A DNA stretch of 25,820 bases, taken from a virus. Positions 5,825 through 25,820 of this stretch are shown piece after piece. The translations under genes were made by a program, and so were the position numbers. The number at the start of each line of letters is the position of its first letter. The first letter of the stretch is position 1. A model generated the notes under the pieces. It saw only the letters and a program-made list of their open reading frames with translations. It was not told where the DNA came from and ran no database searches. The stretch spans positions 1 to 25,820 of the IMG/VR virus record IMGVR_UViG_3300025137_000254, one strand, 5' to 3'.

Positions 5825-5875
5825 GAATGTTAATAAGTCAATTGTTATCTCATAAACAATATACAGGTGTAAACT

Positions 5876-6901
5876 ATGAGCGAGTTTAACAATAGATATA
5901 TTTCAATAACAAAAGAAACGACTAACTATACTACCAATGCGGGTAGTGGGACAGAAGTTTACGGTGAGGTAGATGATGAATCATTAATGCACCGATACGA
6001 CTTACTAACAAGACAAGACATGAGCAGAAGTATTGCTTCAAAGTCTGTCACAGGAACAGAATATTCAGAAGGTGGTTTTAACCTTGCGGCTCAAATAGAC
6101 CCATTTTTGGGAAATGTTTTTAGAGCATTTTTTAAGGATACTTGCTCTAGCGGTAATTCTCACGTATTTACTGAACCAACCGGAACAGAAGTTTTACCTT
6201 CTTTTACCATACAAGTAGGGAGAGAGCAAAAAGAACACACCTATAAAGGAATGGTAGGTAATAATCTAAGTATTAGTGCAAACGTAGGAGAATACGTTAT
6301 GGTAAGTGCTGATTTCGTAGGTAAGGCTGAAAGTGCAACAGGCGATTTACAAACACCTAGTTTTGGTGGAGATAGTTTAGATGCACTTTACTTTTCTAAC
6401 GGTTCAGTTATTTTAAATGATGGAACAGGTTCAGCAAATTCTACTGCAAGTGCTTCTATTAAATCATTCTCTTTAGATATTTCTATGAATAGAGATACTG
6501 ATAACGCATACGGTCTTGGTAACTCAACATATACAAGACCCCCAATAGCACAAAGAAGAGAAATAACAGGTAGTTTAGAATTAAATCAAGTAATTTATGG
6601 TGCTACACCTACTGGTGATGACCCATCATACGATAACTTAATTGCCGCAGATGGTGATATGTATAATGCGGGTTCAGCATTACCGGCTATTAAAATAACT
6701 CTTAATGAAGAAAGTGGGACAGATAACATAGAGATAGCACTTTACAAGGTAAGATTTGAGGCTCCCGAAGCAAACGTAAGCGGAAGAGATACTAACACAA
6801 TGACAGTAAACTTTGTTGCTCTTTACGACGCAGGTGACGCTAACAAAGCAGTTCAAATTACTATGGTTGGTTCTCAATTATTAGAATCTAGTGCTTACTA
6901 A
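5876..6901 (+). CDS. Major tail tube protein
   Basis: A 341-aa protein with GGTGT as ribosome binding site. The middle part (LPSFTIQVGREQKEHTYKGM, then VGNNLSISANVGEYVMVSAD and FVGKAES) is typical of siphovirus tail tube proteins, with the exposed loop and long beta-hairpins that stack hexameric rings. A repeat of the fold follows: FSLDISMNRDTDNAYGLGNS, REITGSLELNQVIYG, and a closing MTVNFVALYDAGDANKAVQI. It lies just before the tail chaperones and tape measure, as expected. It is probably the most abundant tail protein. A major capsid protein is the alternative, but the order and the VSADFVG-type strands favour tube. Confidence 0.75.
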   Translation: MSEFNNRYISITKETTNYTTNAGSGTEVYGEVDDESLMHRYDLLTRQDMSRSIASKSVTGTEYSEGGFNLAAQIDPFLGNVFRAFFKDTCSSGNSHVFTEPTGTEVLPSFTIQVGREQKEHTYKGMVGNNLSISANVGEYVMVSADFVGKAESATGDLQTPSFGGDSLDALYFSNGSVILNDGTGSANSTASASIKSFSLDISMNRDTDNAYGLGNSTYTRPPIAQRREITGSLELNQVIYGATPTGDDPSYDNLIAADGDMYNAGSALPAIKITLNEESGTDNIEIALYKVRFEAPEANVSGRDTNTMTVNFVALYDAGDANKAVQITMVGSQLLESSAY

Positions 6902-6910
6902 GGTGATTAA

Positions 6911-7069
6911 ATGTATGGAAGAGATATACCGGAAAGGTATCTTGAAGAAATGAAAAACATGACTGAAAAACAGGCTGTGCTATATTCTAAAAGATTTCCT
7001 TTACTAGCAAAACCTGTAAAAAAGGTTACGCCCCCAAAAATTAAAATTATAAAGCAAGAAGAAGAGTAA
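6911..7069 (+). CDS. 52-aa basic protein, unknown function
   Basis: The frame runs from ATG at 6911 to TAA at 7067-7069. A strong ribosome binding site, AGGTGAT at 6901-6907, overlaps the stop of the tail tube gene, which supports a real gene. The N-terminus is helical and charged (MYGRDIPERYLEEMKNMTEK), and the C-terminus is lysine-rich with PPKIKIIKQEEE at the end. I do not recognise it. Its place between tail tube and tail chaperones suggests a small tail assembly factor. The hairpin that follows begins 10 nt after its stop. Confidence 0.6.
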   Translation: MYGRDIPERYLEEMKNMTEKQAVLYSKRFPLLAKPVKKVTPPKIKIIKQEEE

Positions 7070-7078
7070 CTCTTTATT

Positions 7079-7120
7079 AATGCCTTATACTCTCCTAGAT
7101 ACAGTGAGAGTGAAGGTATT
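7079..7120 (+). promoter_or_regulatory. RNA hairpin covering the ribosome binding site of the tail chaperone
   Basis: Bases 7079-7086 (AATGCCTT) pair with 7113-7120 (AAGGTATT, one G-U), and 7089-7094 (ACTCTC) pair with 7106-7111 (GAGAGT). T7088 can pair with G7112 by wobble, leaving A7087 bulged. The loop is 11 nt. The outer arm contains the AAGG of the ribosome binding site and ends directly at the ATG at 7121. I infer reduced or regulated translation of the chaperones relative to the tail tube. Confidence 0.55.
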
Positions 7121-7471
7121 ATGCCAATTTTAAAGAAAGAAATAGAGTTAGACGATGGAACAAAGATTTGGGTTAGACAGGCTTCCGGTATGGAAAAACT
7201 GAAAATTACTAACATACAAGGTAAAGCATTTCGTAAAATGTCTCATGCTGGTGGACCGGAAAAATGGACCGAAGAACAAAACGAAGAGTTTGCTTCAATG
7301 GTTGATGAATTAGGTGGCGGCGTTGAAGCACAAATGGAAGCATGGGTTGAGCCCTGTATTCTAGACGAAAAGATAGATGTAAACACATTAACATTTGAAG
7401 AATTAAATAGTATACTACAATTTGTGCGTGGTGACGATGAAGAAGGTGCTGTGCCTTTTCTGAGTTCCTAA
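7121..7471 (+). CDS. Tail assembly chaperone 1 (gpG-like, putative)
   Basis: A 116-aa protein. It starts as a beta-hairpin (MPILKKEIELDDGTKIWVRQ), then becomes helical and acidic (EKWTEEQNEEFASMVDELGG), with a late NTLTFEELNSILQFVRG helix and an acidic tail. Phage tail chaperones bind the tape measure, are small and acidic, and come as a pair between tail tube and tape measure, as here. The ribosome binding site (AAGG) is inside a hairpin. The stop TAA overlaps the ATG of the next gene, which is in the -1 frame, so either re-initiation or frameshifting could link the two. Confidence 0.6.
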   Translation: MPILKKEIELDDGTKIWVRQASGMEKLKITNIQGKAFRKMSHAGGPEKWTEEQNEEFASMVDELGGGVEAQMEAWVEPCILDEKIDVNTLTFEELNSILQFVRGDDEEGAVPFLSS

Positions 7472-7779
7472 TGGTTGCACCTAGCCTGTGTATGGCATTT
7501 AAAGGAACATTACCGTCTGATTTATGGCTAAAGTATTCTGTTCAAGGTGGTAGACACCTTATGGATTTAGATTTATTAATAGCGGCAGACATTAACGATA
7601 AAATATCAAAAGCGACTAAAAGTGCTAAGAAAACAAATCCTAGAGATGCGGTTGCTAGACGCAACCAAAAACGTGAGCAACGCAAACTATTAAACAACAA
7701 CAATGACCTACTCGATATATTGAGAGAAAGCGGGGTCCCAATTGTTAATGACCCAAAGAGTAGCGGTGAAGGTAAATGA
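7471..7779 (+). CDS. Tail assembly chaperone 2 (gpT-like, putative)
   Basis: A 102-aa protein overlapping the preceding gene by one base (TAATG). Residues 10-45 contain FKGTLPSDLWLKYSVQGGRH followed by a DLDLLIAADINDKI helix. The rest is very basic and polar (KATKSAKKTNPRDAVARRNQ) and probably flexible. There is no good ribosome binding site of its own, so it depends on coupling. In lambda-like phages the second chaperone is made only as a frameshift fusion with the first; here it has its own ATG. It overlaps the tape measure start by 4 nt (ATGA). Confidence 0.55.
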   Translation: MVAPSLCMAFKGTLPSDLWLKYSVQGGRHLMDLDLLIAADINDKISKATKSAKKTNPRDAVARRNQKREQRKLLNNNNDLLDILRESGVPIVNDPKSSGEGK

Positions 7780-10700
7780 TAGCGGAAATAGGTATTTTAT
7801 CATATTTAACACCATTAGTATTTATTAGCATGGCTGTTACCATGCTTGTTCTTAGAGCAAGTGGTTCAAGAGTTTTCTTCGACGTTGTTGGAACGTTTCA
7901 AGCCAACAAAATGATTAAAGATATGCAAGCGTCTGCTACTGTTATGGAGAGTCTTTACTTAGATGCCTTAATGGGTATAGAAGAAGCCGGTGCTGAAATG
8001 GGTCAAATGTTTAACAGTCTTGTTGATGCTACTGTGCCTATGGCTCAAGAAATAGAAAACGCACGTGTTGAGTTTGACAAGTTTTTAGGAGAAGGTGAGG
8101 ACTTAGCAGAAGTTACTGCTGAACTAGAAAAAATAGGTTTAGGGTTTGGGTTTGCCGCAGACGAAGCGTTTAGAGCAGGTGCTAGAATGGCTCAATTGAG
8201 TGGTGTTCTAGGTGGTGGCACTACCGAAGTAGGAACAGAAATAGGTATGATGTTTGGTATGATTTCCGGTATGGATACCGAAGCCGCTATGCAAAGACTA
8301 ATTAACTTACAACAACAGACATTCTTTATGACTAAAGGTCTTGAAGATAATATGACAGCACAGGAAAAAGTAAATACTTTGCGAAGAGATTCTATTGCTA
8401 TCTTAGACCAATTAAACACAATCGAAAACCGTTCTGCGGCTACTATGTCTCAGATAACTTTCGTTATGAATCAGTTTGCCTCACAGGCACATCTTACTAA
8501 TGAAAGCATAGCAAGTATGGCCGCTATGTCGGCTACGCTTATTGAAGCCGGTGAAGAACAAGGAAAGGGTGGTAGAGCCTTGCGTATGATATATGCTAGG
8601 TTAGGTGCTAATACAAACGGTGCTAGAGATGCTATTGAGCGATTAGGTATAGCAGTCTTTGACGCTAATGGTGACATGAGGCCGTTTAGTAAATTATTAG
8701 ATGATTTAGCAAAACAATATCATACTTTAGATGGTAGGCAACAACAACAAATGGCTCAACAAGTAGCGGGTAACAGACATTATACACGTCTTATTAAATT
8801 ATTAGAAAACGTAGACCGTGTTAAAGAGTTAGAGTTAGAGGCTATGGTTCAACAAATGTCTGCAACAGATGAGGTAAACAGAAGGTTGAAATCTCAAGTA
8901 TTCGCTTATGAACAATCCGAAGCGGCTATTAAAAATTATAGTGCGGCAGTAGGTAATGCACTTTTGCCGGGTCTTACTTCCGCTAATAACCAACAGGCTT
9001 TGTTTATGGGAACACTGGCTAAACTATTCGATAATGATTTATTAGGTAATATTGTAGGTAGAATGGTAATGATGAGTAGAGTTATGGGTAACTTTGCAGG
9101 TCCAGTATTCCAATCAGTATTGGCATTAAAAAGTTTACAGATTGCTTTACAAACACAACAAATACTTATGAGAGCGTTTAGTGGTGCTACAATTATTGAC
9201 GGTAATACTAAAAAAGCACATACTGTAATGACTGAGGCACAAACTTTAGAACTTAAAGAGCAAAACGCAGTATTTGAACATAATATTGTAATGCTAAAAA
9301 GAAAAATAGTAGTAGGTAAAGAAAAAATAGCAGTATTAGATTTAAGTAAGGCTAGTATAGGACAATTAAATAGACACATACAATCAAATACTTTATTAGT
9401 AGATGAAAACCAAAAAAAGATTGATTTAAATAATAAAACTTTAGCGGCAAGTATTCCGATAGACCACAACGCTAACCATCAGAAAAAATTGTTAAACAAT
9501 ACAATTTTAACAAGTAGTCTTGTTATAACTAAATATACTATGGGTTTGGGTATGCTAGGAAGTGCTATGATGATGTTTGCTAGTAACGAAAAATTAATGG
9601 TTGCAGGATTGCTTGTTACTACTGCGGCTATGGCTATTCAAATGACGGCGACTATGAAAAGTTTGTCGGCTACTATGGCACAAAATGGAGCCTCTACTGC
9701 TAATATCGCTATAATGATTGCACAAATACCTGTAATTAATGCAGTAAGTTTATCAATAGATGGTTTAGCGGCAAGTTTAAAAATGGCTACATGGGCTACT
9801 AGAGGTTTAAAGGTGGCATTAGCCACAATTGGTATAGGTGTTGTAATAATAGGTCTTGATATTCTTTTAGATAAATTAGGTGTTTGGAATATGTTATTAC
9901 CAGATTTAGACCAAAATATGGAAACTTTAAGCACTACAACCTCAGACACAGGATTAGTAATGCAGTATCTTGCTATGGAAACTTCTGAGGTAGTTAGTCT
10001 TTTAGATGAAAAGAAAAGAAAGTTAGCAGAAATAGCAGACGACCAAAGTGAAATGTCTAAAAAGTTAGCAGAAGGATATAAGGTTGAAATTGCTTCATTA
10101 ACTCAAACGTTAGATATGAGAGCAGTAGAAGCAGTATCTATGGATGGTTTAGCACAAAGATATGACACTTATTTAAAACACCAAGAAGATTTAACAAATG
10201 TAACTAAAAACCAAAGAGGTGCTATTGACGATATTCGTAGACTGTTTTTAGGATTAGCAGATGGTATAAATTGGGCACAAACACAAGGAGAAAAATTTGG
10301 GAATTGGGTAAGTAGTGGTTTCGGTTTTGGTGACGTATTTAGTGGAGAAGCCGGAGAAGGATTTTTTGATAACATTATTTCTACTGGTTTAATTGGTGAT
10401 AGACAAAAAGCAGAAAAGGGTATGCAAGATTTCGTAGACCACAACGCTGATTTAATGACTTTCTTAGCAGGAAAAACTTTTGAAAGTAGTGAGGATATGA
10501 TAGCGGCTTTAGAAGATTACAATGAGTATCTAAGAAATTACGGGCAAGAAGATTTGACAGGTGGTATAGGCACTAGTTTAGACGACGCAACAGAATCACT
10601 ATACAAATTTAACAACGCTAGAGAAGAGTTATTTTTTGGTTTTTCTACCGACAAATTAACTGGCGACCTTGTAAGACAAGTAAAACAACAAGGTGTAGAA

Positions 10701-10829
10701 ACTTTAATAACATCCACAGAAGTAATTATGACTAATAACTTTAACGGAGATATGACTATACCGGAAATAGCACAACAGTTATTAGATGAAATAAATAGTG
10801 AAGCCCGCAAAAGAGGAATAGTGACTTAA
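7776..10829 (+). CDS. Tail tape measure protein
   Basis: A 1017-aa protein with GGTGA 7 nt before the ATG. Residues 12-27 are a hydrophobic segment near the N-terminus. Residues about 60-400 match the TP901-type tape measure core (SIASMAAMSATLIEAGEEQG, RALRMIYARLGANTNGARDA, then AMVQQMSATDEVNRRLKSQV and SAAVGNALLPGL). Two further hydrophobic regions lie in about residues 585-690 (GLGMLGSAMMMFAS, ALATIGIGVVIIGLDILL), as usual for tape measures that help DNA cross the host membrane. The C-terminal part is acidic and helical. By the usual rule of about 1.5 angstrom per residue, the tail would be near 150 nm, which fits a long siphovirus-like tail. Confidence 0.88.
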   Translation: MIAEIGILSYLTPLVFISMAVTMLVLRASGSRVFFDVVGTFQANKMIKDMQASATVMESLYLDALMGIEEAGAEMGQMFNSLVDATVPMAQEIENARVEFDKFLGEGEDLAEVTAELEKIGLGFGFAADEAFRAGARMAQLSGVLGGGTTEVGTEIGMMFGMISGMDTEAAMQRLINLQQQTFFMTKGLEDNMTAQEKVNTLRRDSIAILDQLNTIENRSAATMSQITFVMNQFASQAHLTNESIASMAAMSATLIEAGEEQGKGGRALRMIYARLGANTNGARDAIERLGIAVFDANGDMRPFSKLLDDLAKQYHTLDGRQQQQMAQQVAGNRHYTRLIKLLENVDRVKELELEAMVQQMSATDEVNRRLKSQVFAYEQSEAAIKNYSAAVGNALLPGLTSANNQQALFMGTLAKLFDNDLLGNIVGRMVMMSRVMGNFAGPVFQSVLALKSLQIALQTQQILMRAFSGATIIDGNTKKAHTVMTEAQTLELKEQNAVFEHNIVMLKRKIVVGKEKIAVLDLSKASIGQLNRHIQSNTLLVDENQKKIDLNNKTLAASIPIDHNANHQKKLLNNTILTSSLVITKYTMGLGMLGSAMMMFASNEKLMVAGLLVTTAAMAIQMTATMKSLSATMAQNGASTANIAIMIAQIPVINAVSLSIDGLAASLKMATWATRGLKVALATIGIGVVIIGLDILLDKLGVWNMLLPDLDQNMETLSTTTSDTGLVMQYLAMETSEVVSLLDEKKRKLAEIADDQSEMSKKLAEGYKVEIASLTQTLDMRAVEAVSMDGLAQRYDTYLKHQEDLTNVTKNQRGAIDDIRRLFLGLADGINWAQTQGEKFGNWVSSGFGFGDVFSGEAGEGFFDNIISTGLIGDRQKAEKGMQDFVDHNADLMTFLAGKTFESSEDMIAALEDYNEYLRNYGQEDLTGGIGTSLDDATESLYKFNNAREELFFGFSTDKLTGDLVRQVKQQGVETLITSTEVIMTNNFNGDMTIPEIAQQLLDEINSEARKRGIVT

Positions 10830-18567: not shown

Positions 18568-18726
18568 CTACCAACCTTTTGTGGTATATACTTCACCGTC
18601 TATGTCTACCATATAAGAATTACATTTACCGCAAAACTTTTCTACGGCTGTCTGCGAAGTCCAATCGGACCCACAGCATACGCATTTTGTTGCTTGTTCT
18701 AGTGTTATCATACTCATTGTCATCAT
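18568..18726 (-). CDS. Small zinc-ribbon protein next to the XPF nuclease
   Basis: A 52-aa frame from ATG at 18726 to TAG at 18568. GAGGTAAT just before the ATG is a good ribosome binding site and overlaps the primase stop, 4 nt away. Cys pairs C15-x2-C18 (CVCCGSD) and C32-x2-C35 (CGKC) form one zinc ribbon, and the rest is a short beta tail (YMVDIDGEVYTTKGW). It is the fourth zinc ribbon of the module and, like the others, sits just before a DNA enzyme, here the XPF-like nuclease 32 nt downstream. Function unknown: accessory DNA-binding subunit or regulator. Confidence 0.65.
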   Translation of the reverse strand: MMTMSMITLEQATKCVCCGSDWTSQTAVEKFCGKCNSYMVDIDGEVYTTKGW

Positions 18727-25579: not shown

Positions 25580-25820
25580 AGTGGTAGGTGCTATGATAGC
25601 GGCATCCGTCATTAACAACAAAGCCGCTATCGAAACAGCACTTTCAAGAGAGTTTAATACTACTTGTGTAGGGTCATAGACCCCATCTACCTTAGCCTTT
25701 CTCATTTCTCCGGTCTTACCGCACATATAATACGCCTTACCGAGAGAAAACCTAGTGTTTTCCGCACCACTATTCGATACAATAGTAGTTATAGGTGTTA
25801 GCAAACCGTTTACAAACAGT
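25577..25820 (-). CDS. Group I chaperonin (GroEL/Hsp60-like), C-terminal end only
   Basis: The gene runs in from the right edge; the last 80 residues are present and the frame stays open to the edge. They match the end of GroEL: LLTPITTIVSNSGAENTR (as in the PLxxIVxNAG segment), YYMCGKTGEM (as in GYxAxTGE), then DGVYDPTQVVLNSLESAVSI and ALLLMTDAAI. The GVxDPTxVxxxALxxAxSxAxLLLTTxA pattern is of group I rather than of archaeal thermosomes. The C-terminal Gly-Gly-Met tail of GroEL is missing. A virus-coded chaperonin would help fold capsid or tail proteins. The stop overlaps the promoter of the ATPase gene. Confidence 0.82.
   Translation of the reverse strand, partial: LFVNGLLTPITTIVSNSGAENTRFSLGKAYYMCGKTGEMRKAKVDGVYDPTQVVLNSLESAVSIAALLLMTDAAIIAPTT

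Follow-up and report, generated by a model that had tools for sequence, protein, structure and literature searches.

A long hairpin between a candidate archaeal TATA promoter and the start codon of a presumed tail chaperone gene may mask its ribosome site in read-through RNA

The analyzed window, a stretch of 25,820 nucleotides of viral DNA (IMG/VR record IMGVR_UViG_3300025137_000254, positions 1 to 25,820), contains a long inverted repeat that ends at the start codon of a presumed tail chaperone gene. We propose, with about even confidence, that the segment at 7072–7120 is an archaeal TATA promoter together with the short leader of the chaperone operon, and that the inverted repeat provides a promoter-dependent masking of the ribosome site. 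The repeat would link the untranscribed promoter spacer, which holds its 5′ arm, to the leader, which holds its 3′ arm, with transcription starting where the loop meets the 3′ arm. Transcripts of the local promoter would carry the 3′ arm alone, and their ribosome site would be open. Read-through RNA from the tail-tube promoter would carry both arms, form the hairpin, and hide the ribosome site, so that the abundant tail-tube RNA would give little chaperone and tape measure product. All coordinates below refer to the plus strand of the window unless stated otherwise.

The hairpin at 7079–7120 is real and unusual. Its minimum-energy fold has 17 pairs (two of them G-U), a 6-nt loop, and a free energy of −17.5 kcal/mol, with a single-base bulge on each side of the stem (A7087 and T7105). 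According to this fold, the 5′ arm occupies 7079–7096, the loop 7097–7102, and the 3′ arm, which corresponds to the predicted mRNA leader, 7103–7120. Shuffled sequences had a mean energy of −6.1 kcal/mol, and none of 200 was equally stable (z = −5.1). When the flanks were included (7040–7160), the stem was kept, with a z of −3.9 and again none of 200 shuffles reaching the native stability. A sequence-only reading of this DNA had described a long hairpin ending exactly at the start codon and had named a comparison with shuffled sequence as a check. Both the position, with the last paired base at 7120 directly followed by the ATG at 7121, and the excess stability were borne out; the stem itself stands, with 17 pairs and a 6-nt loop computed in place of the 14 pairs and 11-nt loop described earlier. 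Among the 51,556 stretches of 42 nt on both strands of the whole window, 107 were at least as stable as the hairpin, and these merged into 12 places. Nine of the places were G+C-rich repeat stretches at about 200–351 and 1217–1380, and the other three were the hairpin and two places on the minus strand. The latter lie outside the listed genes, at 18643–18684 (−17.6 kcal/mol) and 25590–25631 (−21.0 kcal/mol). The idea of an intrinsic terminator was dropped by eye because the stems at this junction had no strong T-run behind them.

The hairpin lies between the tail-tube gene and the operon that follows it. The tail-tube gene (5876–6901; Pfam Phage_tube_2, E = 2.4e-17; PHROGs tail protein, E = 6.9e-23) has a TATA-like box of its own, GTTAATAA (5829–5836), which is the likely source of read-through RNA, with a start predicted at about 5860–5864. 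The distance from this box to a TAGAGG/ACAGG motif was 26–27 nt in 22 distinct sequences of relatives, a count that omits five of 33 loci (four with a missing or unsure gene start, and one, L117, in which the pattern was unmatched). In the tail-tube promoter region of the window (5829–5875), a small hairpin, ATTGTT/AACAAT (p = 0.02), is present in the spacer and is mostly missing in relatives. Upstream of the long hairpin is a small ORF of 52 amino acids (6911–7069) with a terminal acidic run; its counterparts in relatives, as judged by eye, are rich in Lys, Ala, and Pro and have the same acidic end. The upstream stop codon lies nine bases 5′ of the hairpin, and a terminating ribosome could thus disturb the 5′ arm, a point against the masking model. 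The first gene past the hairpin is the presumed tail chaperone (7121–7471), defined as an ORF and by a 16-row alignment of relatives, followed by a second small ORF of the operon (7471–7779, 102 amino acids) and the tape measure gene (7776–10829; PHROGs tail length tape measure, E = 4.4e-16). The PHROGs search returned no family for either small ORF or for 7121–7468. The designation "tail chaperone," proposed earlier, therefore agrees with position and synteny and not with a PHROGs family.

A TATA-like box and the likely transcription start flank the 5′ arm, a relationship that the sequence-only reading had overlooked. The box, CTTTATTA (7072–7079), shares its last base with the first base of the hairpin. 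To place it among relatives, we used a protein scan (43 loci) and an alignment scan (80 loci), and compared the window with 86 loci in all, of which L045 is the same virus as the window at 100%. A TATA-like octamer was present at the equivalent place in 52 of the 87 entries, representing 33 distinct sequences, as judged with a list of TATA variants that was compiled by eye once the sequences had been seen. The remaining 35 entries had no listed variant and were excluded from the counts; read by eye, their upstream ORF mostly extends almost to the chaperone ATG. In the 33 distinct sequences, the octamer lies immediately 3′ of the upstream stop codon. In these sequences, which were selected by motif, 23–26 nt separated the octamer's end from a start-site-like AGYG motif, with a standard deviation of 0.97. 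The octamer-to-ATG and AGYG-to-ATG distances ranged from 46 to 65 nt and from 14 to 32 nt, respectively, each with a standard deviation of 6.8. The spacer between the box and AGYG is thus constant in length, while its sequence turns over freely among relatives.

In the window, a 23-nt spacer (7080–7102) separates the box from A7103, which follows a C and is the 24th base past the box. We predict transcription to start at A7103, on the basis of the spacing in relatives and the geometry of archaeal promoters. The 3′ arm also begins at A7103, and RNA initiated there would be devoid of the 5′ arm. The 5′ arm precedes the predicted start and should therefore occur only in transcripts that read through from the tail-tube gene. 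The tail-tube gene repeats this promoter geometry. We consider it likely, from the box and its spacing, that a TATA-type promoter operates here. A further TATA-like box, CTTAAATA, is found at about 1595–1633 before a 2OG-Fe(II) oxygenase gene starting at 1634, with a shorter distance to the ATG.

The ribosome site is paired in the hairpin. The site is GAGTGA (7108–7113), which lies in the inner stem and on the first outer base, and it is conserved: AGTG is present in all 33 distinct leaders. The site proposed earlier, AAGG (7113–7116), ends just four bases 5′ of the ATG and is missing from most relatives, so that masking was upheld and the identity of the masked site was revised. The computed cost of opening the GAGTGA site (AGTGAA stretch) in the window was 9.84 kcal/mol in the read-through RNA and 0.31 kcal/mol in the RNA from 7103. 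When the spacer was shuffled, the mean cost was 3.12 kcal/mol, and none of 60 shuffles was as high as the native sequence. GAGTGA was unpaired in the computed folds of RNAs beginning at 7099, 7101, 7103, or 7105, whereas RNA from 7030 formed the full stem. The nearest relative, L046, gave costs of 7.48 kcal/mol in the long RNA, 0.40 kcal/mol in the short RNA, and 2.13 kcal/mol on average with shuffled spacers. These computations make it plausible, and rather probable, that the ribosome site is physically masked in the long RNA. Across the 33 distinct sequences, the mean cost in the long RNA was 2.72 kcal/mol as compared with 2.57 kcal/mol for shuffled spacers. Masking exceeded that of shuffled spacers at p of 0.1 or less in three of the 33 sequences and was clear in two, the window and L046; the site stays free in most relatives. 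General masking of the ribosome site across relatives was thus ruled out by the shuffled-spacer test. That masking is a function kept by selection is uncertain, and we place its probability somewhat below even.

Masking would occur in any RNA that contains both arms, and this would also suit a constitutive hairpin in the main transcript that damps chaperone translation, perhaps as a sensor of temperature or a ligand, with no promoter involved. The TATA-like box at a constant spacing from a start-like motif argues against this explanation, as do the poor conservation of the stem and the lack of an Rfam match, and we regard it as improbable to a high degree. The suggestion that the hairpin sets how much chaperone and tape measure is made relative to tail tube is compatible with its location, with the tail-tube gene on one side and the following operon on the other. 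RNA from the predicted local promoter would lack the hairpin.

The long stem is limited to the virus of the window and its nearest relative. It is full in the window, whereas one pair is broken in the three records of the L046 type and the stem has decayed in the three of the L054 type; in other relatives, it is absent or replaced by different structures. In L046, a change at C7090 caused the loss of a pair that was not repaired. No compensating two-sided changes in the long stem were found among the relatives compared, and an Rfam covariance model search of 6880–7300 gave no matches up to an E value of 1; a conserved RNA element was dropped as an explanation for these two reasons. The conservation in relatives that the earlier reading required was thus largely wanting, and its interpretation as a whole is partly supported. 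Pattern searches for further copies of the long stem retrieved just the records already known. A separate pattern gave 11 L080-type records in which AATACC is able to pair with GGTATT before the ATG. In loci of the L080–L108 type (e.g., L168–L176), AATACC sits after the TATA-like box, and the pairing resembles that of the window, with a local fold competing. Masking in this type was not above that of shuffled spacers.

Between the window and L046, the spacer and leader were identical at 39 of 41 positions, as compared with 18 of 32 four-fold degenerate sites of the chaperone gene (p = 1e-4). For L054, the corresponding values were 19 of 23 spacer positions and 14 of 28 four-fold degenerate sites (p = 0.02). 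The spacer of the tail-tube promoter was identical at 25 of 26 positions between the window and L046, and the conservation therefore does not single out the hairpin; these two viruses keep their promoter spacers with or without such a stem. An inverted repeat that arose by chance or neutrally in this short intergenic region would be in keeping with a stem confined to two lineages, one of them already mismatched, and with the unremarkable masking in 30 of the 33 distinct sequences. This explanation has to account for a stability that none of 200 shuffles reached, for a stem that runs exactly from the end of the TATA-like box to the ATG, and for the excess of conserved positions over synonymous sites, and it appears very improbable.

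Other hairpins were found at the same junction. Of the 33 distinct spacers, 11 (or 14 when a second shuffler was used) contained a short hairpin that lies between the box and the start and leaves the ribosome site free. In contrast, only two of 22 tail-tube spacers, that of the window included, folded better than shuffles. The Fisher p values for the difference were 0.05 and 0.014, with relatives treated as independent. The spacer energies at the junction and at the tail-tube promoter showed no overall difference (Mann-Whitney p = 0.43), and more than half of the distinct junction spacers had no significant hairpin. Hairpins as a general trait of the promoters of these viruses were dropped, given the low number among tail-tube spacers. 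In two hand-picked groups, pairing survives a few two-sided changes and is abolished when the pairing partner is slid along; as 22 to 36 of 500 column shuffles reached the observed share of pairs, this gives modest support. Eight loci (L051, L053, L056, L065, L066, L059, L064, and L067) carry a hairpin in the leader, 3′ of the predicted start, rather than in the spacer. The arms of the leader hairpins were GGCC/GGCC, AGCC/GGCT, GCGC/GCGC, and GTGC/GCAC, with some two-sided changes. On the protein tree, the hairpin types changed several times among relatives. A hairpin between the tail-tube and chaperone genes thus recurs in varied forms, whose common denominator would be the read-through RNA.

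These observations bear on the possibility that the promoter is real and the masking incidental, such that a recurring short intergenic hairpin, serving the 3′ end, stability, or cutting of the tail-tube RNA, happens to reach the ribosome site in the window. The higher share of hairpins at the junction, the pairing preserved by two-sided changes in the hand-picked groups, and the free ribosome site in most relatives fit such a situation. The many spacers devoid of a significant hairpin, the similar energies at the two promoters, and the absence of a strong T-run, as judged by eye, do not. We regard incidental masking as unlikely, though as the most serious of the competing explanations. The inverted repeat might instead act as DNA, as the operator of a dimeric regulator between the TATA box and the start. 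Its location in the core promoter, at which protein binding would presumably block transcription, and the high conservation of the spacer between the window and L046 are consistent with an operator. On the other hand, the repeat sequences vary freely with pairing kept in some groups, as would be expected of a structure more than of a binding site, and the repeat of the window is bulged and differs from the others. An operator is therefore considered improbable, somewhat less so than the constitutive hairpin.

Promoter-dependent masking remains our preferred reading for the window. A broader proposal, which we advance only tentatively, is that this family of archaeal tailed viruses balances tail tube against chaperone and tape measure by a stem-loop across or beside an internal TATA promoter, the origin of the RNA, local or read-through, deciding its translation. 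In the lineage of the window, the stem would reach from the TATA box as far as the ATG, acting directly on the ribosome site. This logic, also found at T4 gene e, would have been reached independently in archaea. If true, an archaeal virus would provide an example of RNA masking that depends on the promoter, and this would suggest how tailed archaeal viruses obtain abundant tail tube, but only small amounts of chaperone and tape measure, from adjacent genes. Hairpins at start codons need to be read alongside the transcription start, as half of such a hairpin may never be transcribed.

We take the window to be part of an archaeal-type tailed virus. Its opposite strand encodes a family B polymerase and an ERCC4 nuclease, and the best polymerase matches among those listed were from haloarchaeal tailed viruses, at approximately 25% identity. 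Searches of a phage collection by DNA similarity and with the tail-tube gene gave no match. Relatives were sought in genome contigs and none was confirmed, and hence no host was linked through a provirus. The virus is probably magrovirus-like, a name that we infer. In the available text of PMC10160649, magroviruses are described as tailed viruses of Marine Group II archaea; the window resembles them in having a marine-type tailed gene set and a family B polymerase related to that of haloarchaeal viruses.

The transcriptome of Thermococcus onnurineus, in the available text of PMC5316973, places the TATA box at a center about 27 nt before a pyrimidine-purine start. The window is like such archaeal TATA/BRE promoters in its A/T-rich octamer and in the similar distance to a predicted purine start preceded by a pyrimidine, and unlike them in having a stop codon directly 5′ of the box. 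The literature covered, in part, on read-through hairpins, parallels in archaeal viruses, and hairpins at tail chaperone genes contained no such archaeal case. The closest known system is gene e of phage T4, which, like soc, 49, and I-TevI, has an inhibitory leader structure according to the available text of PMC3014915. There, the long early RNA of gene e folds and is untranslated, and the late-promoter RNA, which is begun within the DNA of the 5′ strand and so lacks this strand, is well translated. The window shares with gene e a helix over the ribosome site in the long RNA, here in computed folds; its candidate promoter beside the 5′ strand would, from the predicted start at 7103, likewise yield RNA without that strand. 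As far as that text goes, gene e is transcribed by bacterial RNA polymerase from a phage late promoter, TATAAATA, whereas the window has a candidate promoter of the archaeal TATA type; gene e undergoes an early-to-late switch for lysozyme, whereas the window concerns a presumed tail chaperone, for which both RNAs would be late.
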